From Candidatus Nanoarchaeia archaeon (GTDB lineage: Archaea; Nanobdellota; Nanobdellia; Pacearchaeales; GW2011-AR1), in assembly GCA_028711165.1 (NCBI GenBank), contig JAQTST010000001.1, positions 478,558 through 542,557 of the forward strand: a DNA stretch of 64,000 bases, written 5' to 3'. Position numbers and translations under genes: made by a program. The notes beneath the pieces were generated by a model, which made no database searches, was not told where the DNA came from, and saw only the letters and a list, made by a program, of their open reading frames with translations. Positions 8,395 through 51,290 of the stretch are shown here, in pieces; position 1 is the first letter of the stretch; each line of letters opens with the position of its first letter.

Positions 8395-9690
8395 ATGGTA
8401 AAACACCTGATAAACAAACTAAAAACAAAAGCGGGAAATGTATTTAGAAAAGCAGTTTTTTTAGGCACTACATTTCTTTTATTTGGATGTCCAGATCCCT
8501 ATATTCCTCAATCTCCAAGAGCAATTGTCTATGCAAATCCTAACTCTGGAGAAGCTCCTTTGGAAAGCAGAATAACCTTAAACGGAGAAGATCCCGACGG
8601 AGACATCGCAGAGTATAAATTGGAAATAGATGAAGGAGCTAACGGCTCTGTAGAAGAAACAATAGTTCAATCAACACCAATAGATATAACAAGAACATTC
8701 AGCGACGGAAATGTAAAAATTTATGGACAATGCACTGATTCAACAGGATTAAGGGGAGCAAAAAATGCTTACATAACTCTTTCACAACCAACACCAGAAC
8801 CTACCCCTCTTCCAGCAAAACATATTACGGGAAGATTAGAAAGCAATGAAGAAGACGGAGTTTTGAAATCAGGAGAAGTAAGAGCATATGTTGATACAAA
8901 TAACGACGGAATTGCTGAAGATGTTCTCTATGATGATGGAGAAAATTTTGATTTCCTTGTTCCTTACAATTCAGATGTCAAGATAAAAGGAAAAATAAAC
9001 GGGGGACTTGGAAGTTATGTCAGAACAGTTTCTTTCGAAGATGTTATTGAAAATAAAGATGTAACAGTAAGAGCAGTTCCTTATCCAACTTTTTGCACGC
9101 CAGAAGAATTCAGACAGCATATGTATGAGATAAATTGTACTAACTCCAAGTGGGATTTGGATAATTTATATAAGATAAAAATTTTCAAGCATGGCAACGA
9201 CGGAGAATTTAATGATACACAAGTCACATTAATATCAAACAAATTCAAGGATGCTAATGATATTGAAAAATTTGTCGATGGAAAAGAATTAGATAGTTAT
9301 ATTGAAGTAGTTGATGGTATCCCACCAGAGCCTTGGGAAGATAACTGTATTTATGTTGTTCCAAATAATAATATCCCTGGAGACAATGCTGGAGTTACTT
9401 ATAGACAGAAAACAACCAATAAGGTTGTATATAAAGTAAGAATTGAAATAGATCCCGCGGGGATTATTCCAGATACTAGTAATACAGTTATTACCCATGA
9501 AGGCGGACATGCATTTAATGCTTTTGATGGTGAAGCTATAATTCTTGAAGATGGAGATACAATTCTGAAAGCTTACCCAAATGGAGCAGTTCCTAAAATT
9601 GCAGACGAAAAAGCAGCAAAAGTTGTTTATGAAAATACATACAATGCCGGAGAAAGCTGGAATAATATTTTGGGGATGGAAAGTTGGTAA
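8395..9690 (+). CDS. Lipoprotein with PKD/Ig-like N-terminal domain and HEGGH (HExxH) motif, putative metallopeptidase
   Basis: Lipobox-like LLFGC; VITHEGGHAFNAFDGE. Confidence 0.55.
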   Translation: MVKHLINKLKTKAGNVFRKAVFLGTTFLLFGCPDPYIPQSPRAIVYANPNSGEAPLESRITLNGEDPDGDIAEYKLEIDEGANGSVEETIVQSTPIDITRTFSDGNVKIYGQCTDSTGLRGAKNAYITLSQPTPEPTPLPAKHITGRLESNEEDGVLKSGEVRAYVDTNNDGIAEDVLYDDGENFDFLVPYNSDVKIKGKINGGLGSYVRTVSFEDVIENKDVTVRAVPYPTFCTPEEFRQHMYEINCTNSKWDLDNLYKIKIFKHGNDGEFNDTQVTLISNKFKDANDIEKFVDGKELDSYIEVVDGIPPEPWEDNCIYVVPNNNIPGDNAGVTYRQKTTNKVVYKVRIEIDPAGIIPDTSNTVITHEGGHAFNAFDGEAIILEDGDTILKAYPNGAVPKIADEKAAKVVYENTYNAGESWNNILGMESW

Positions 9691-10424: not shown

Positions 10425-10509
10425 ATGAAATAGATGAATGGAATTTATTTAAATCTGATGATAAAAATCTAAATCGGAATATTTATAAATATAAAAAAGG
10501 TAAAAAATT

Positions 10510-10710
10510 ATGGTAAAAACACTTTTAGAAATTGCTGAAGTACTTCCTCTTAAAGGTAGAGAATATAATTTGTATTCTCCAAGAAATTCGCTAAAAAGAA
10601 GTTATGATAATTCCTGCGATTGTGGAGATTGTTCAAGCGATAACTGTGATTGCACTCCGAGTGGAGATTGTGTTTGCACCCATTGTAATGAATGTGGGAA
10701 TGACGATTAA
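10510..10710 (+). CDS. Cys-rich mini-protein, candidate RiPP precursor
   Basis: 66 aa with a Cys-rich C-terminal core CDCGDCSSDNCDCTPSGDCVCTHCNEC (9 Cys) immediately upstream of radical SAM gene. Confidence 0.65.
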   Translation: MVKTLLEIAEVLPLKGREYNLYSPRNSLKRSYDNSCDCGDCSSDNCDCTPSGDCVCTHCNECGNDD

Positions 10711-10733
10711 AATAATCTTTCTTTATTTTTAAT

Positions 10734-11777
10734 ATGCCCAAACAAAATTTTAGCACGACTTGGTTAGCCTTAACTTATAATTGTAATAATAAATGTAATT
10801 GGTGTTATGCGAATTCAAACAATTTAACACAGAAACAAATATTTCCTCAGCGATATGAAAATGGAACTATCAATTTATTAACATCTTTGGGAATAAAAAG
10901 GACTATTCTAATTGGTGGAGAACCTACTCTCTATCCAAATATTCATGGGATAATAGAGAAAATTACTAATTATGAAATTAGTGTTGGTTTAGTATCAAAT
11001 GGTAGAAAATTAAAGGATTATTTTTTTGCAAAGGAGTTAAAAGAAAATGGGTTAAAAGCAATGTCAATATCTTTTGGTAGTTACTCTGGGAAAATACAGG
11101 ATAAGATAACAAAGATTGTTGGTAGTTTTGATGAAGCTATTGGGGGATTGGAGAATGCTTTATCTGTTGGATTAAAGGTTTCAAGCAATACAGTAATAAA
11201 TAAAAATAATGTCGAAGATCTTGAAAAAATTGTTAATCTTTTAGGAAAAAGAGTGGATATAATGACTTGGAATTTTTGTGGGACTTGTCTTTCAGAGGAT
11301 TCAAATAATAAATCCGTATTATCTCCAAAAGAAACTGCAAAAGCTATTCAAAGAATTTATAATTATACGAAAAAGAGAAATGTAAAGATAAAAGTAGTAA
11401 CCCCCATGCCTTTTTGTGTTTTTGATAATGATTATCTGGAAATATTTAAGAAAAATGATATTATCTCTGGAGGTCCATGTCAATTAGCTCATGGAAAAAA
11501 TTTTGTTATAGAATATAATGGAAATATAATTCCCTGCACACATTTTAATGGTTTTCCAATGATGAATATTTTTGAAAAAGAAAAGGTTATCTCTGCAGAA
11601 GATTTTATTGGAAAATACTTTAATTCCGAAGGAACTCCTTTTAAATTTAGAAAGATGGTTTCAAAATTCCCTTCAGAGAAATGTGAAGATGAGAATTGTA
11701 AAGAACCTTGTAGTGGAGGATGTCCTTTAATTTGGAGATTATTTAAACCAGAAGAAGTTATTAAAAAATATGAATAA
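10734..11777 (+). CDS. Radical SAM/SPASM-like peptide-modifying enzyme
   Basis: CNNKCNWCYA (CX3CX2C), GGEPTLYPN, C-terminal NGNIIPCTHF…CEDENCKEPCSGGCPL auxiliary Cys cluster. Confidence 0.85.
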   Translation: MPKQNFSTTWLALTYNCNNKCNWCYANSNNLTQKQIFPQRYENGTINLLTSLGIKRTILIGGEPTLYPNIHGIIEKITNYEISVGLVSNGRKLKDYFFAKELKENGLKAMSISFGSYSGKIQDKITKIVGSFDEAIGGLENALSVGLKVSSNTVINKNNVEDLEKIVNLLGKRVDIMTWNFCGTCLSEDSNNKSVLSPKETAKAIQRIYNYTKKRNVKIKVVTPMPFCVFDNDYLEIFKKNDIISGGPCQLAHGKNFVIEYNGNIIPCTHFNGFPMMNIFEKEKVISAEDFIGKYFNSEGTPFKFRKMVSKFPSEKCEDENCKEPCSGGCPLIWRLFKPEEVIKKYE

Positions 11778-12441
11778 ACCAAAAGTAATTTTTAGATTTG
11801 ATAAAGAAAAAGATTTATGGAATATTTGGGATACTTGCAACAAAGATTCATCTTGGTATGATTTTAAAAATACAGTTCATCCAAAGTTATTAGAAATCTG
11901 CAAGGGAAAAAAATTTAGTGAGTGTAGAGAAGAATTAGAAAAACAGAAAAAGAGATTATATGATTCTGGCTTTGTTGAAATATTTACTCAATCTTTGCAA
12001 GAAGCATGGAATAAGATAAATGATGAATATTTTAGAAGATTAGAAAAAGTGATGAAGAAACCTATATACAATAAAGAATTTATTGCTTATATAACTACGA
12101 ACATCAGGTGCCCTTATGATTATAAAGAACCTTCATTTATGGTTTCATTTTTCAGAGATATTTTATCTGCTCTTAAGACTTGCGGACATGAAATAATGCA
12201 TATACAGTTTCACAATACTTATTGGAATGAAATAGAAAAGCAGATTGGAAAGGAAAAAACTGCTGATTTAAAAGAAGCATTAACTGTTTTACTTAATCTA
12301 GAATTTAAGGACTTATGGTTTGCAGAAGATAACGGATATGATGTTCATAGAGAATTAAGAAAATTTATCTCTGATAAATGGAAAAAAGAAAAAGATTTTG
12401 AAGTTTTATTAGAAAAAAGTGTTGAATATCTAAAAGAATGA
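11770..12441 (+). CDS. HExxH-containing hypothetical protein, possible zinc peptidase
   Basis: TCGHEIMHIQFHNTYWNEIE; ATG overlaps end of radical SAM ORF. Confidence 0.55.
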   Translation: MNKPKVIFRFDKEKDLWNIWDTCNKDSSWYDFKNTVHPKLLEICKGKKFSECREELEKQKKRLYDSGFVEIFTQSLQEAWNKINDEYFRRLEKVMKKPIYNKEFIAYITTNIRCPYDYKEPSFMVSFFRDILSALKTCGHEIMHIQFHNTYWNEIEKQIGKEKTADLKEALTVLLNLEFKDLWFAEDNGYDVHRELRKFISDKWKKEKDFEVLLEKSVEYLKE

Positions 12442-12989
12442 AACTCTACTTATTACGTCATGCTGAAAGGGGACACGGAAAAGAGCAAGACACCCTAACC
12501 TTAAAAGGCATTAAACAATCAAGAAAAATCGTCCCTTATTTAGAGACATTGCATATAGATAAAATTATTTGTGCTAATACTAAAAGAGCAATAAAGACAA
12601 TTGAGCCTTTTTTAAAAAATCTCTCGGTGGAGGTTACAAGTTTGGTTAATGAACAAGAAATGGGAAGTTTAAGAGGAAAATCTGGAACTGAATATAGAAA
12701 TGCAATTGAAAAATCTGGATTAGACAAAAAAAATTTTAGGCCCGAAGGGGGAGAAAATTATTATGATTTAATAGAAAGAGCAAAAAAATTTTTATATTCT
12801 CTAAAGAAAGAAAAGGCAGAAAATATTTTAATATCAACCCATGCCGGATTTATACGAGCAGTCATAAAACTACTTTTAAATTTACCTGAAGAAAAATTAA
12901 AATTTGATTTTGGTTCAGTAACGTTTATAGAACTTGATAGAGAGTTTAAAGTTATTAATTATTCTCTTAATCAAATAGTAAATCCTTAA
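12438..12989 (+). CDS. Histidine phosphatase (phosphoglycerate mutase-like)
   Basis: LYLLRHAERGHG … ENILISTHAGFIRAV; ATGA overlap with upstream gene. Confidence 0.88.
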   Translation: MKLYLLRHAERGHGKEQDTLTLKGIKQSRKIVPYLETLHIDKIICANTKRAIKTIEPFLKNLSVEVTSLVNEQEMGSLRGKSGTEYRNAIEKSGLDKKNFRPEGGENYYDLIERAKKFLYSLKKEKAENILISTHAGFIRAVIKLLLNLPEEKLKFDFGSVTFIELDREFKVINYSLNQIVNP

Positions 12990-13031: not shown

Positions 13032-14630
13032 ATGAAAAAGAATGTGATAGTAAAATCTGCAATAATATTATTCTTATTTGTATTTTTATCGTCGGGTATT
13101 TTGGCTGCGCCTGCTCCAGGAACATGCGGAATTACAACACGGGCAGACTGCTCTGGCACAAACCACATTATAATGGGATTGTCGTCGGCAACAAATAGCC
13201 ACGGAGAGTTTCCTGATTTAGGAACTTATGGTTATGTTCTGTGCTGTGCTTTTGGCGATGGAGTCAATGAAACTGAATGCAGCATAGGAACAAATACTCT
13301 CTTTAAACTTTCTTCTTACACAAATGCTCACGCTGAATCTCCACAAGGAACAGCTTATAACTTAGTAAAAGTCTGTTATGAAGACTTGGTATGTGAGGAT
13401 TTTTCAGATAATTGTGGGACAGGAGCTGCATTAAATTTTCCACTTGGAATTGCTTCTCTTTCTTCTGTTACAAATGCACATATTGGAAACGTAAGTGATT
13501 ACCCAGTAAAAATATGCTGCGGGAGTGCGACTTTTGCAGGATGTTCAATAAATTCTGCGAGATGGAGTCCTGAAGGAGAAATAATAGCAGGACAAGATGT
13601 TCATTTAATTGTACAGGGGAATGAAGCATGTTCCGGCAAGACTATTGCATTTGATGTAAGCGGTGGAAGTGCAACAGCAGGACAGGAAGTTCAGGAACAG
13701 CCAATTTCAATTACATTTACAGGAACAGAAGGGATAGGTGTGTGGGAAGCAGAATATCACACCGACACTCCGTTAGTAGGAAAATGCGGGGTATTAGGTA
13801 CAAGTTGTGATTATTATTTTAATGCTTCACTTTTAAGAAATCCTTTAGTTGTCAGAACAAGTAATCTTCCGGAATTATTAATTCTTGAAATGTCTGAGGG
13901 TTATTGTACTGAGGTAACCTCGTGCGATGATTATACAAGTCAGTTAGATTGTGAAAGTGATATCTGCGATGTTCCTATCGAAGGTATTCCTGGAATTAAC
14001 TGCGAGAGTGAATCTTTTATCTGTGGGTGCGGATGGAATAATGAAACAAATACTTGTGGTTTTGGATATAGTGAAATAACTGAAGGAACCTGCGGAAATC
14101 CTGTTGTAGGGGAAGGGTGCAATTATGGATGTACACTCTGTCATAATGCAACATCAAATTATTGCCATGTAGGTTCAACTTGTCCGGTAGGAGAGAATCC
14201 TTTAACTAACAGCGACGGAATTTGTGATTTTGGCGAGGGTTGTGTTTCTTTTGCTGAGTGCCAGGATGGAGAACAAGACACATGCGCTTCTGGATATTAT
14301 TGTATGTCGGGAAAATGTTCATCTGTTCTTCCGCCAATAACTTTAAACCTGGGGAATTGTGAAATTTCACAGAGTATTACAAAAGATTGTGATGAAGAAC
14401 CTGTTGGATATAAAATAGCAACATTAACAACTGAATGGACAGGAGAACAATCAGGAGAACAATATGAAGACTGCATTGCAAAGAACGGAGAGAATGTAAG
14501 AATTTCATGCCCCGCACAAGTCCAGCTTCCATTTTTCGATTACATCGGAATAATTGCAACAATTTTAGCAGTTGCAGGAATTTATGTTTCAATGATTCTA
14601 AAAAAGAAATTCAAGAATAAAAAAATTTGA
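13032..14630 (+). CDS. Secreted Cys-rich surface protein with C-terminal TM anchor
   Basis: Signal peptide, many Cys, C-term FFDYIGIIATILAVAGIYVSMILKKKFKNKK. Confidence 0.65.
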   Translation: MKKNVIVKSAIILFLFVFLSSGILAAPAPGTCGITTRADCSGTNHIIMGLSSATNSHGEFPDLGTYGYVLCCAFGDGVNETECSIGTNTLFKLSSYTNAHAESPQGTAYNLVKVCYEDLVCEDFSDNCGTGAALNFPLGIASLSSVTNAHIGNVSDYPVKICCGSATFAGCSINSARWSPEGEIIAGQDVHLIVQGNEACSGKTIAFDVSGGSATAGQEVQEQPISITFTGTEGIGVWEAEYHTDTPLVGKCGVLGTSCDYYFNASLLRNPLVVRTSNLPELLILEMSEGYCTEVTSCDDYTSQLDCESDICDVPIEGIPGINCESESFICGCGWNNETNTCGFGYSEITEGTCGNPVVGEGCNYGCTLCHNATSNYCHVGSTCPVGENPLTNSDGICDFGEGCVSFAECQDGEQDTCASGYYCMSGKCSSVLPPITLNLGNCEISQSITKDCDEEPVGYKIATLTTEWTGEQSGEQYEDCIAKNGENVRISCPAQVQLPFFDYIGIIATILAVAGIYVSMILKKKFKNKKI

Positions 14631-14674
14631 AAATAATTCTATAAATTTATAAATCATTTTAGCTTAAAATATTA

Positions 14675-17326
14675 ATGAGAGGTATAAGAGGTTTTACATA
14701 TTTTGTTCTCATAATTTTTTTTATGAGTTTTGCCTCGGCAAGTTTTTCTGTCGGGAATGCAAGCAACGGAATAGAAAGTTCTTATGGGCCAGGAGAAAAA
14801 ATCAGAGGATGGATAAATGTCAGTTTAACAAGCGAAGATGCGACATCGCTTCTTGAAAGTTCACTTGGCGGGAGCATAAGATTAATTGATTTAGTAAGAA
14901 AAACTCCTTCAAATTCTGCATTTATTTACAGCTGTATTCCTACAACCTGTGAATCAAATTATTTAGCAACAAACTCAGACGTCTCAAAAACTTTTAATCT
15001 CGACGAAGAGGAAAGTGTTTTATTCGGGATGAAAATTACAGCAACAAAAAGTGTGGGGGACATTTCAGATTTTTATTTCAACTTATCGAGCAATAATCCT
15101 GGAACAGTAGCAATGCCACTTTCAATTGATATTTTAAATGACGGGCAAGTGGAATGGCAGGCATATGCTGCCTCTGGAGAATTTGGGGCGGAAAATTTTG
15201 GATGTTACGTCGGAATGGATACAGCAACACAATTAATTGCAAATGCTCCGCAGTATTGCGAGAGAGTAGAACTTTCAAAAACTCCGGAAATTGAATTGGG
15301 AGCTTATGTTGCTTACGAAAAAGGAACAGGAACTGTAAATTTTGAAATGAGCATTGAGAACAGTGAGACAGGTGAGAAAAAAGTGTGCACAGTATCAACT
15401 TCAGGAACAGGCTTGAAGAGAATTTTCTGCACTCCGACGGATTTTTCAGTTAAGGAAGACGGAGATTATTATGTGTGCATAAAAACAAAACTCGCTGCAG
15501 ATAACGGAAAATACAAAATTAATTCTGAGCAGAAAACTCCCTGCGGTTTTACAGGAACATACGAAGGAGATTATAGTTATGATTTTGAAATTTTTGCAAG
15601 GCCGAAAGAATATGCAGCATCAATTAACATAAAGCTCAATGACGCAGAATTGGCAAGAGCAGACAGTCCGATACTCAATGTTGAAAATTACATCGACGAA
15701 TATATAACTGACAATTATAAAAATAACTGCTCAAAAGGATGCGTGATTCCAATAAAGGTTTATTCGGGAATAAATAATCAGCAAGTAGATGTCTCAAATT
15801 TCTTTATGTCTTACATAGCAGATACTTACACTGAGAATACAAATATCTATGACGTCGAGGAAACCCCAGCAGAGATTTCTTCTTCATATCAGAAATTATT
15901 TTTTGACGACGCGAATTTTAGTGTCCCAACAAGTTATGGAAATCACACTTTCTCTGTTGAACTTAATGATGCAAATTTGTTAACGAAAACAATTTCTGTC
16001 GGGGAAGTTGCTCAGATTAAATCGCTGACACCGACGAAAACTGCTGTGAAATATCCGACAATTTTTTCTGCTGAGGTTGGAGGCAAAAATATAACCGGCT
16101 ATAATTGGAATTTTGGTGATGGGGTTAGTGAAACCACTTCGGTAAATTCAGTTACGCACACATATGCTGCTACAGGCACATACACACTCAAGATTACAAT
16201 CAACAGTCTGAAAGGAAGTTCTTCCAAAAATTTTAATATAACAGTCGGTCCTGCTTCAGAGATAGTTCCATCTCTTTTGAGTGATGCAAGTTCGAGCATA
16301 AGCAATATAAAAAATCAGATGAATAGTTTTTCGCTGTTTGAACAGGAAAGTATTGACAGCACATTAGGATTAAGTTCAGCGGAAGCAACTATAGATGAAA
16401 TGAATGATGCGGTTCTTAGTGCAGTTCTTGAAAGTGATTATGAAGCAATACTTGCAGAATTATTGACAATAAATCTTCCTGAGACAATTGCAAAAACTGC
16501 GACGAGCAAGGGACTTTCTTTTTATCCTGCGACAGAAAATATTGACCTTAATGTGTTAAAGGAAATTGGCGGGGGAGATTATACAGCCGGGAGAGAAGAA
16601 CAATACAGAGAAGCAGTTCTGGCGTGGAATGATGTTTATACCACAAACGATTTATCATACAGCGAGATTTCTTTATTTTACAGCGACAGAAAAGAATTAC
16701 TGAGAATTTTCGAAATGAATGTAACAAAGTCAAGTGCAGACTCTGCATATTTTATAATAAAGAATATGGAGGATATTTATCTGCAGAATGAAGATGAATA
16801 TTCAGAAAAAACCGGATATTTTTATACTGGTTTAAATGGTAAAAAAAGTATCAGGTTTTCAACAACAGAAGAAGTTGATTTTGTAGATGTCCCTATGTTT
16901 ATTTCTCCTTCACTGGACAATCTTGCAGTGTTAGATATCACTCCCCCTGAGAAAATAAAATGGACTGTCCCAATCATTATTGCAGTTATGATTATTTTAA
17001 TTGCAGGAGTTATTTGGGTGATATTGCAGGTTTGGTACATAAGGAAATATGAAAGTTATTTGTTCAAGGACAGAAATCATCTTTATAATCTGGTTAGCTA
17101 TATCAATGATGCAAAGAAAAAAGGGGAAAGCGATAGTGTGATTTCTTCTAAACTTAAAAAGGCAGGATGGAGTTCTGAGCAGGTTAGGTATTCACTCAGA
17201 AAATATGAACAGAAAAATACAGGGCTCCCCGAGATAATTCCAATAAGAAAACTTTTAGAAGGATTCAAAAAACTTCCTCTCCAGAAAAAATCTACGACGA
17301 CAAACATAAGAACCAATGGTTCCTAA
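14675..17326 (+). CDS. Large surface protein with PKD domain and C-terminal TM/cytoplasmic tail
   Basis: Signal peptide; ITGYNWNFGDGVSETTSVNSVTHTYAATGTYTLKITI is a PKD repeat; TM near 16970. Confidence 0.75.
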   Translation: MRGIRGFTYFVLIIFFMSFASASFSVGNASNGIESSYGPGEKIRGWINVSLTSEDATSLLESSLGGSIRLIDLVRKTPSNSAFIYSCIPTTCESNYLATNSDVSKTFNLDEEESVLFGMKITATKSVGDISDFYFNLSSNNPGTVAMPLSIDILNDGQVEWQAYAASGEFGAENFGCYVGMDTATQLIANAPQYCERVELSKTPEIELGAYVAYEKGTGTVNFEMSIENSETGEKKVCTVSTSGTGLKRIFCTPTDFSVKEDGDYYVCIKTKLAADNGKYKINSEQKTPCGFTGTYEGDYSYDFEIFARPKEYAASINIKLNDAELARADSPILNVENYIDEYITDNYKNNCSKGCVIPIKVYSGINNQQVDVSNFFMSYIADTYTENTNIYDVEETPAEISSSYQKLFFDDANFSVPTSYGNHTFSVELNDANLLTKTISVGEVAQIKSLTPTKTAVKYPTIFSAEVGGKNITGYNWNFGDGVSETTSVNSVTHTYAATGTYTLKITINSLKGSSSKNFNITVGPASEIVPSLLSDASSSISNIKNQMNSFSLFEQESIDSTLGLSSAEATIDEMNDAVLSAVLESDYEAILAELLTINLPETIAKTATSKGLSFYPATENIDLNVLKEIGGGDYTAGREEQYREAVLAWNDVYTTNDLSYSEISLFYSDRKELLRIFEMNVTKSSADSAYFIIKNMEDIYLQNEDEYSEKTGYFYTGLNGKKSIRFSTTEEVDFVDVPMFISPSLDNLAVLDITPPEKIKWTVPIIIAVMIILIAGVIWVILQVWYIRKYESYLFKDRNHLYNLVSYINDAKKKGESDSVISSKLKKAGWSSEQVRYSLRKYEQKNTGLPEIIPIRKLLEGFKKLPLQKKSTTTNIRTNGS

Positions 17327-17466
17327 TACTTCCTATTGATATTTTCGTTAACCACGACGACGAAATTATCATTTCATTACTGAAATATTTATAAAGAGAA
17401 ATGACGGTTTTATACCATGATGCGAATAGGAAATTCTTTCAAAATACAAAATAGGAGTTTTGCATA

Positions 17467-18108
17467 ATGGCGATAAAAATTTTTAAAAATTTCTTCAAAA
17501 GGATTCTTGGCAACTTATTCAAAAATAAGAAAGAGATAAAATTGGGATTTTACGGGCCTCCGAATGCAGGAAAGACCAGTCTTGCAAACAGAATATGCAA
17601 AGATTTTACAGGAGAAGAAATAGGAACAATAAGCAAAGTTCCGCACGAAACAAGAAAGGTTCAGTTCAAGGAAAAAGTTGAAATAAGCTACAAAGGAAAA
17701 AAAATGACTTTCAAAATGATAGACACGCCGGGAATTGCTACAAAGATAGATTATGAAGATTTTTTGAAATATAAAATGCCGAAAAAAGAAGCAAAGGAAA
17801 GAGCAAAAGAAGCAACGCAGGGAGTTATCGAAAGTATCAAATGGCTTGATGATATGGACATAGTTGTTGTTGTTCTCGACGGTACTGAAAATCCCTACAA
17901 TCAGGTAAATATTACAATAATCGGGAACCTAGTTGCGAGGAAGATTCCTGTTTTAATTGTCACAAATAAAATTGATTTGAAGAAAGCAGACATAAAAAAA
18001 GTTGAGGCAGCATTTCCTGAATATGATGTCATAGGGATAAGCGCTAAATTTGGAGATAATCTTGAAGAGTTTTACGAGTCGATTTTCAAATTATCGAAAA
18101 AAGTTTAA
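17467..18108 (+). CDS. Era-like/small GTP-binding protein
   Basis: GPPNAGKTSLANRI (G1), DTPG (G3), TNKID (G4). Confidence 0.92.
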   Translation: MAIKIFKNFFKRILGNLFKNKKEIKLGFYGPPNAGKTSLANRICKDFTGEEIGTISKVPHETRKVQFKEKVEISYKGKKMTFKMIDTPGIATKIDYEDFLKYKMPKKEAKERAKEATQGVIESIKWLDDMDIVVVVLDGTENPYNQVNITIIGNLVARKIPVLIVTNKIDLKKADIKKVEAAFPEYDVIGISAKFGDNLEEFYESIFKLSKKV

Positions 18109-40948: not shown

Positions 40949-41140
40949 ATGACAATAACATTAGATAAGAAAACAGAAATATGTCCCTTGATAAATAAAT
41001 GTAAATCTTACTATGATCAAGAGAACAGAACAATCTGCCATGGAGAAAATAAATACCATAATTATAAGGAATGCGTAGCATATGATTTAAACAGAAGAGT
41101 AAAGGAAGGTTCCATAATTTGCGGGAGTTATAAAAAATAA
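40949..41140 (+). CDS. Small Cys-containing hypothetical protein
   Basis: EICPLINKCKSYYDQENRTICHGENKYHNYKECVAYDL. Confidence 0.55.
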   Translation: MTITLDKKTEICPLINKCKSYYDQENRTICHGENKYHNYKECVAYDLNRRVKEGSIICGSYKK

Positions 41141-46540: not shown

Positions 46541-47970
46541 AATCCAGTTGATCCTGCTGGCGGCTGCGGCTCTCTGGTTCACACTTAGACATGCAAGTCT
46601 TTCGAGAGAAGGCGAACTGCTCAGTAACACGTAGCTAACCTGCCCTTAAGTCAAGGATAACCTCGGGAAACTGAGGATAATACTTGATAGGAAATATACC
46701 CTGGAAAGATTTATTTCCAAAACTCGAGCTTAAGGATGGGGCTGCGGCGGATTAGGTAGTTGGCGGGGTAATAGCCCACCAAGCCTGTGATCCGTAAGGG
46801 CTCTTAGCGGAGAGGCCCTGAGAGGGAATCTGAGACACTATTCCCAGCCCTACGGGGTGCAGCAGGTAGGAATCTTTTGCAATGCGCGCAAGCGTGACAA
46901 AGCGAGCCAGAGTGCTTTTCAATGAAAAGCTTTTGCCAAATGTAAAAAGTTTGGCGAATAAGGACTGGGTAAGACGAGTGCCAGCCGCCGCGGTAATCCT
47001 CGCGGTCCAAGTCGCAGCCATCATTATTGGGTCTAAAACATCCGTAGCTTGTTTGATAAGTTCCTTGTGAAATCCTGTCTCTTAAGGGCAGGGCGTGCGG
47101 GGAATACTGTTAAGCTAGAGACTGGAAGACGCAAGAAGTATGTTCAAAGTAACGGTAAAATGTGTTAATCTTGAGCAGACTCACAACAGCGAAGGCATCT
47201 TGCGAGGACAGTTCTGACAGTTAAGGATGAAGGCTAGGGGCGCAAAAAGGATTAGATACCCTTGTAGTCCTAGCAGTAAACACTGCGCACTAAACATTAG
47301 TACCTCTTCGGGAGGTATTGGTGCTGAAGGGAAGCCGAAGAGTGCGCTACCTGGGAAGTATAGCCGCAAGGCCGAAACTTAAAGGAATTGGCGGGGAGAC
47401 ACTACAACAGGTGACGCGTGCGGTTCAATTAGATTCTACACCGTGAACCTCACCAGGACCGACAGCAGAATGAAGGTCAGTCTGAAGGGCTTACCTGACA
47501 CGCTGAGAGGAGTTGCATGGCCGACGTCAGCCTGTGCTGTGAAGTGACCTGTTAAATCAGGTAACAGGCAAGACCCACATACATATTTACTTTGTACTAT
47601 ATGTAGATTGCTTTGGTAACAAAGATGAAAGTGTGGGCTACGTTAGGTGAGTACAGCCTGAATGCCCTGGGCGACACGCGCGCGTCAATGGTGAATACAG
47701 TGAGATGCAACACCGAAAGGTGAAGCTAATCCCATAAAGTTCATCTCAGTCCAGATTGAAGTTTGAAACCCAACTTCATGACGATGGAATCTGTAGTAAT
47801 CGTTTGTTAGCAGCGAACGGTGAATATGTCCCTGTCTCTTGCACACACTGCCCGTCAAACCAACCGAGTTTATTCATGATGAAACTTTTCGAAGGAGAAT
47901 CTTGGGTAGACAAGGTAGGTTAAGTCGTCACAAGGTATCTGTAGGGGAACCTGCAGATGGATCACCTCCT
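46541..47970 (+). rRNA. 16S ribosomal RNA
   Basis: CAGTTGATCCTGCTGG start, GTGCCAGCCGCCGCGGTAA, ATTAGATACCCTTGTAGTCC, GGATCACCTCCT end. Confidence 0.98.
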
Positions 47971-48121
47971 ATTTTATTTTCTTTGATAATCTTTTGAATT
48001 ATAACTAAATGATTCTTCTACATACTATTCTATTTATATTTCATCGTCGGTGAAATTATAAAATCACCAAGAAAAAATAAATAGAAAATATTAAAAACGA
48101 TTATGGGCTCCAAATAATTAA

Positions 48122-48192
48122 GGGCTCGTAGTCCAACGGCAGAACACCTGTCTTGCACACAGGAGTTCCGGGTTCAATTCCCGGCGAGTCCA
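48122..48192 (+). tRNA. tRNA-Ala (TGC)
   Basis: Cloverleaf; anticodon loop CTTGCAC; GGGCTCG/CGAGTCC acceptor with G3:U70; in 16S-23S spacer. Confidence 0.96.
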
Positions 48193-48392
48193 TTTGTTCT
48201 GTTGTAAAATAAATCACACATCATATTCATTGTAAAAAGAACTAATCGTTCTTCTTACGACATCTCCCTTGAGATTGCCTCAGGGGTGATAATGAACTTC
48301 AGAGATGAAGTAAAAAATCACGACGACAAAGTCGTCACCATCGTCGGTGAGAGAACAAAATCTCTTATCGCTTTGAGAGTTTATACTCAATG

Positions 48393-48411
48393 AAATAAGC
48401 ACTGGAAGTAT
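48393..48411 (+). other. 5' arm of 23S pre-rRNA processing stem
   Basis: AAATAAGCACTGGAAGTAT, exact reverse complement of 51312-51330. Confidence 0.85.
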
Positions 48412-48464
48412 TCCCACTTAATTAGAAATTTAATAATTTCGCAATTAGTAATTAGTATTTTAGA

Positions 48465-51290
<2,826 letters not shown>

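Follow-up and report, generated by a model that had tools for sequence, protein, structure and literature searches.

A cysteine-rich peptide, a radical SAM enzyme and a zincin-like HExxH protein: a conserved cassette and probable RiPP pathway of small-genome archaea

Does the gene for a short cysteine-rich peptide that lies directly before a radical SAM (rSAM) gene in an archaeon encode the precursor of a RiPP, and which of its neighbors belong to the same pathway? This question is raised by a locus in a stretch of 64,000 nucleotides from contig JAQTST010000001.1 (hereafter, the window), for which a first-pass annotation had proposed an undescribed archaeal maturation pathway of four genes. 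The archaeal origin is borne out by archaeal SSU and LSU rRNA inside the window; the rRNA operon spans 46541-51280 and its spacer holds tRNA. The host assembly comprises 0.64 Mb and contains 26 Radical_SAM genes. All four open reading frames are present at the locus with the gap and overlaps that had been described:

10482..10489, forward strand: TATA-like element TTTATAAA, 28 nt upstream of the precursor ATG
10510..10710, forward strand: precursor ORF, 66 aa
10734..11777, forward strand: rSAM protein, 347 aa (PF04055, E=2e-20), starting after a 23-nt gap behind the precursor
11770..12441, forward strand: HExxH zincin-like protein, 223 aa, no family match; 8-nt overlap with the rSAM gene
12438..12989, forward strand: histidine phosphatase of branch 1 (PF00300, E=4e-26); 4-nt overlap with the HExxH gene, translationally coupled

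The precursor ORF can be divided into a leader-like N-terminus (about residues 1-34, the first 20 of which read LLEIAEVLPLKG) and a Cys/Asp-rich core, its nine Cys all lying within the final 31 residues. The window has 258 six-frame ORFs of 40-100 aa, and no other of them reaches a Cys content of 13%. Relatives of the locus were located by rSAM homology alone, ignoring the small ORF. The search over 181 genomes of the same family gave five full-length rSAM relatives with 40-46% identity, far above the rest, and a broader profile search added the rSAM of G430, which belongs to another family of the class. Together with the window's enzyme these six orthologs form a single clade (support 97/90), and the seven genomes, referred to here as type A, fall into one archaeal class. 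At all seven loci a Cys-rich ORF of 57-66 aa (57-63 aa in the six relatives) is placed no more than 33 nt from the rSAM gene or overlaps it, and an HExxH gene adjoins the rSAM gene at each of them. The remaining ORFs of 200 aa or more in these regions, 478 in number, served as a control: only 9 had a comparable small Cys-rich ORF within 100 nt, and several of the nine are themselves RiPP peptide candidates. The order of genes differs in G430, where the small ORF separates the rSAM gene from the HExxH gene instead of lying upstream, so that the association is independent of a single gene arrangement.

The expected synteny of precursor and rSAM gene was therefore found beside every orthologous rSAM. 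The proposal of a four-gene pathway held for precursor, rSAM and HExxH protein, which form a conserved unit; the histidine phosphatase occurs only at this genome's locus and is missing from the remaining cassette loci examined, which rules it out as a member of the RiPP pathway. No exporter or transporter was found within the cassette. Two sets of related rSAMs, that of Oscillospiraceae L001 (28% identity) and those of G252 and G498, showed neither precursor nor HExxH partner and were used as outgroups. The latter two (L129:6332-7366 and L155:1462-2514) represent a sister rSAM group that adjoins an Lrp/AsnC-like regulator in both genomes.

In the alignment of the small ORFs, five of the seven (the window peptide and those of G106, G097, G178 and G135) share the N-terminus LLxIAxxIxLKGG, after which a variable linker leads to a core built from DC, CxC and CxxC units. 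When each of these five leaders was left out in turn, it outscored all background N-termini (0 of 752 reached its score). The cores of the G028 and G430 ORFs have diverged, that of G028 containing CQKCCHCG. A short encoded precursor with leader and core beside a modifying enzyme, the general hallmark of a RiPP, is thus seen at all seven loci, with the leader conserved in five. Asp stands directly before 28 of the 47 core Cys (expected 15.5, p<0.0005), and Cys at position +3 from Cys is enriched; the window peptide carries a His where the core of its relatives keeps a conserved Asp. Freyrasin-type CX3D chemistry was considered and found unsupported, since D at +4 (11 of 44) is no more frequent than in shuffled cores (mean 12.7, p 0.82). 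Likewise unsupported is a single leader common to all cassette types, for which only G028, G180, G154-C and G132 reach 1.6-3.6% of background. Matches to TTTAWATA in at least 7 of 8 positions were observed at -27 to -37 in 9 of 13 precursors, all cassette types pooled, vs 19% of A+T-matched ATGs (binomial p 1e-4). The TATA-like element near -28 suggests that the small ORF probably heads its own transcript, and the window precursor transcript is expected to be nearly leaderless.

The rSAM protein carries CNNKCNWC near its N-terminus. Since the CxxxCxxC motif begins at residue 17, there is no room for an N-terminal RRE, which is common on the rSAM enzymes of known ranthipeptide and sactipeptide systems, and no PqqD-like RRE protein scored above cut-off in the seven type-A genomes. 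The C-terminus is SPASM-like, with Cys 249, 268, 317, 322, 326 and 330 invariant in a six-way alignment. These six Cys are spaced in a SPASM-like way; on the side of the profiles, the Pfam SPASM score of the window rSAM (16.7 bits) stays under the cut-off of 21.5, the SPASM profile gives weak matches in five of six rSAMs, and the protein passes Pfam cut-offs at superfamily level only. All 25 NCBIfam families listed for it, RiPP rSAM models included, score far under their cut-offs, and the SCIFF, CcpM and ACGX systems are thus not matched. The best of these scores belongs to MoaA (87.6 bits vs a cut-off of 325), so that the enzyme falls into no family with a known non-peptide substrate, an assignment that would have spoken against a peptide pathway. 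The precursors matched no curated family of the libraries searched, NCBIfam included, and neither did the HExxH protein; together with the superfamily-level placement of the rSAM, this agrees with the description of the cassette as undescribed.

We consider it probable, judging from sequence, that the cassette encodes a RiPP pathway, with the Cys/Asp core being modified by the rSAM enzyme and the leader removed by the zincin. In binding the LLxIAxxIxLKGG leader the rSAM enzyme would do without a classical RRE; as it has no recognizable RRE, leader recognition must work differently. It would then modify the core, most likely by forming intramolecular thioether links from Cys, after which the zincin would cut off the leader; possible sites for this cut are the surroundings of the LKG(G) motif and the variable linker. 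The rSAM might instead install another change, such as epimerization, C-C or C-O crosslinks or decarboxylation. We regard this as unlikely, albeit with some weight, because Cys (with Asp) is the most conserved residue of the type-A cores, even if the lack of CX3D enrichment would suit it. The solved structures retrieved by a profile search with the rSAM also leave it some ground: the best match is SkfB, a sactipeptide enzyme (E 1.8e-17), followed by MoaA, with PqqE also among them.

The role of the zincin rests on a protein for which neither Pfam, NCBIfam, PHROG nor PDB offered a credible relative. Its HExxH motif reads GHEIMH, and all 27 homologs keep H140, E141, H144 and E169; the family thus has both the HExxH motif and an invariant distal candidate for the third ligand, as zincins do, and E169 would be this metal ligand. 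A search of solved structures with the family gave no credible match, and a single-sequence AlphaFold model (pLDDT 44.5) was unusable for assigning a fold. An rSAM gene neighbors 11 of the 27 strong homologs (p between 3e-4 and 3e-9, according to the background chosen), while about 16 have none, and the HExxH protein may therefore also act elsewhere. The family is common to the rSAM lineages A (window), B (G092, G180 and G164, with the rSAM of G382 as sister) and C (G021), which form separate clades. The HExxH tree is not sorted by rSAM lineage; the window protein is nearest to that of G092 (65% identity). The B, C and D loci encode Cys-rich peptides of their own, for example a CYST-repeat peptide in G180. 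That one HExxH family accompanies several rSAM/peptide pairs argues for a role in peptide maturation, and its occurrence beside two or more further rSAM lineages, which have different Cys-rich peptides, strengthens its link to the pathway. Moreover, two further HExxH families (HEISH and HESLH) were found in G090, each beside another rSAM/Cys-peptide pair, one of them with a relative in G154.

Several further loci were noted around these families. In G090, L138:5360-7693 and L138:9689-11877 hold pairs of an rSAM/SPASM gene and a small Cys-rich peptide, one of the peptides with a repeated RCKGWCHD unit. In G132 (L080:5364-9414) a ThiF/E1-like enzyme (PF00899, E 1e-41) and a 46-aa peptide are encoded behind an HExxH gene, and the opposite strand carries a 48-aa ORF and another rSAM; this is possibly a different RiPP cluster that uses the same HExxH family. 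At L083:470-1500 and L089:258-1314 an APH-kinase-like gene lies behind the type-B precursor in the same orientation, divergent from the HExxH-rSAM pair; the kinase-like genes of the two loci share 35% identity.

The linkage just described also bears on the possibility that the Cys-rich peptide is a metallothionein-like protein or an Fe-S or metal carrier, with rSAM and zincin serving another substrate or maturing the peptide for metal handling. The CxC/CxxC spacing and the DC pairs would be capable of metal binding, as the enrichment of Cys at +3 might also indicate, and a cassette without exporter would suit a peptide of this kind. We nevertheless hold it to be very improbable, since it leaves unexplained the linkage to three rSAM lineages and several zincin families as well as the conserved leader-like half, and since the cores diverge strongly, as in G028 and in the type-B peptides with their CYST repeats. 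A plain metallothionein, which the first-pass annotation had named among the findings that would overturn its proposal, fails to account for the linkage with rSAM and zincin genes.

For the role of the HExxH protein, the strongest competing reading is an alpha-ketoglutarate (aKG)-dependent hydroxylase: the pathway would be the same, and the HExxH protein would act as a tailoring enzyme on core Asp or His. HExxH proteins from RiPP clusters that had been taken for metallopeptidases were shown to depend on aKG; these enzymes adopt a zincin-like fold and catalyze beta-hydroxylation of Asp and His or oxidative cleavage (PMC12636437). Like the protein described here, ChlH, PflC and PosC are encoded with rSAM enzymes in RiPP clusters (PMC12636437), and the core is rich in Asp, one conserved position of which is taken by His in the window peptide. 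Here, however, the HExxH protein is encoded by a separate gene, and TIGR04267 (mod_HExxH) had no match at the HExxH genes of 13 genomes at E<=10; it was unmatched in 12 of the 13, the type-A genomes among them apart from one weak match, which lies at an unrelated place. The reaction also needs O2, and COX1 was above cut-off in none of 11 genomes, which makes an O2-dependent reaction less likely, although the absence of COX1 is no proof of anaerobiosis. On balance a hydroxylase seems improbable, and we prefer leader removal as the putative function of the HExxH protein, the proposed leader peptidase. A metalloprotease that removes a RiPP leader has a parallel in TldD/E, which matures microcin B17 (PMC5810440); the archaeal protein differs in being a single chain of about 220 aa without Pfam, NCBIfam or PDB homolog above threshold.

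Known rSAM systems resemble the cassette in part. Ranthipeptides (SCIFF/CteB, freyrasin/PapB) likewise combine a short Cys-rich precursor with an adjacent rSAM/SPASM enzyme, and the freyrasin core is likewise rich in Cys and Asp. The archaeal cassette differs from them in the absence of an N-terminal RRE on the rSAM, of CX3D enrichment and of a similar leader, and in its dedicated zincin; the rSAM scores far under the cut-off of the curated PapB model (340 bits). Sactipeptide enzymes (SkfB, AlbA) also act on Cys-containing peptides, SkfB being the best solved profile match, whereas the present core is built of DC, CxC and CxxC units and the cassette has neither RRE nor transporter. RiPPs made by rSAM enzymes are an already known kind, and an antiSMASH survey predicted clusters of the ranthipeptide and sactipeptide types in a range of archaea, DPANN among them (PMC12144867); the part of that survey consulted describes neither this precursor family nor the zincin partner. 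Neither the libraries nor the open-licence literature searched contained the precursor family, the rSAM clade, the zincin partner or the RRE-less state, absence from the latter source being weak evidence.

The distribution of the cassette is patchy. In its genus, the window's genome is the only one with a type-A rSAM. In G154, a sister species of the same genus (L105:6610-7817, C63), the first ~32 HExxH codons abut the remnant of a different rSAM's C-terminus, and downstream lie a zincin-like gene and a different 63-aa Cys-rich peptide with an ILGG motif; G154 additionally holds a type-C rSAM/peptide pair. The fused remnant is the scar of a cassette replacement. In G031 an intact HExxH gene adjoins a decayed type-A rSAM. 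Three genomes (G000, G106 and G092) have their cassette close to the same GTPase/surface-protein genes (post hoc p 0.005), and most relatives sampled have no cassette near that site; a strict insertion hotspot is suggestive only. In the window, 13032-18108 is a block conserved in relatives, with genes for a Cys-rich secreted protein, a PKD surface protein and the GTPase; the stretch from RtcB to the GTPase is variable among relatives and holds RiPP-like cassettes in several genomes. An origin from viruses or mobile elements was rejected, as neither the HExxH protein nor the precursor had relatives in viral contigs, where the rSAM gave one weak partial match. Patchy distribution and cassette turnover suggest that the product serves in signaling or between microbes and is not a housekeeping cofactor. 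In a broader and more tentative reading, to which we give slightly less than even chances, these cassettes belong to a RiPP group of small-genome archaea, in which unrelated rSAMs with their own Cys-peptides are joined by a new single-domain zincin family (and other zincins) that matures peptides without a classical RRE, and in which cassettes replace one another at chromosomal sites.

A better knowledge of such cassettes is of interest, as very little is known of the peptides of small-genome archaea. The cassette provides a defined precursor family, an enzyme and a candidate protease that can be co-expressed, and the HExxH family can serve as bait for more peptide clusters in archaea. Should the zincin be a peptidase, a compact leader-removing enzyme would be added to the RiPP repertoire; if it is hydroxylase-like, HExxH peptide-modifying enzymes would extend into archaea.

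Three other regions deserve mention. Dense rSAM and B12-type rSAM genes amid glycosyltransferase and nucleotide-sugar genes occupy about 11000-71000 of G000:C3 (L130-L133), a run that looks like a large surface-glycan island. In the window, 8395-9690 encodes a secreted lipoprotein-like ORF with its own HEGGH motif and no Pfam match, and a 63-aa ORF with six Cys (40949-41140) lies immediately behind an 800-nt ORF on the same strand.
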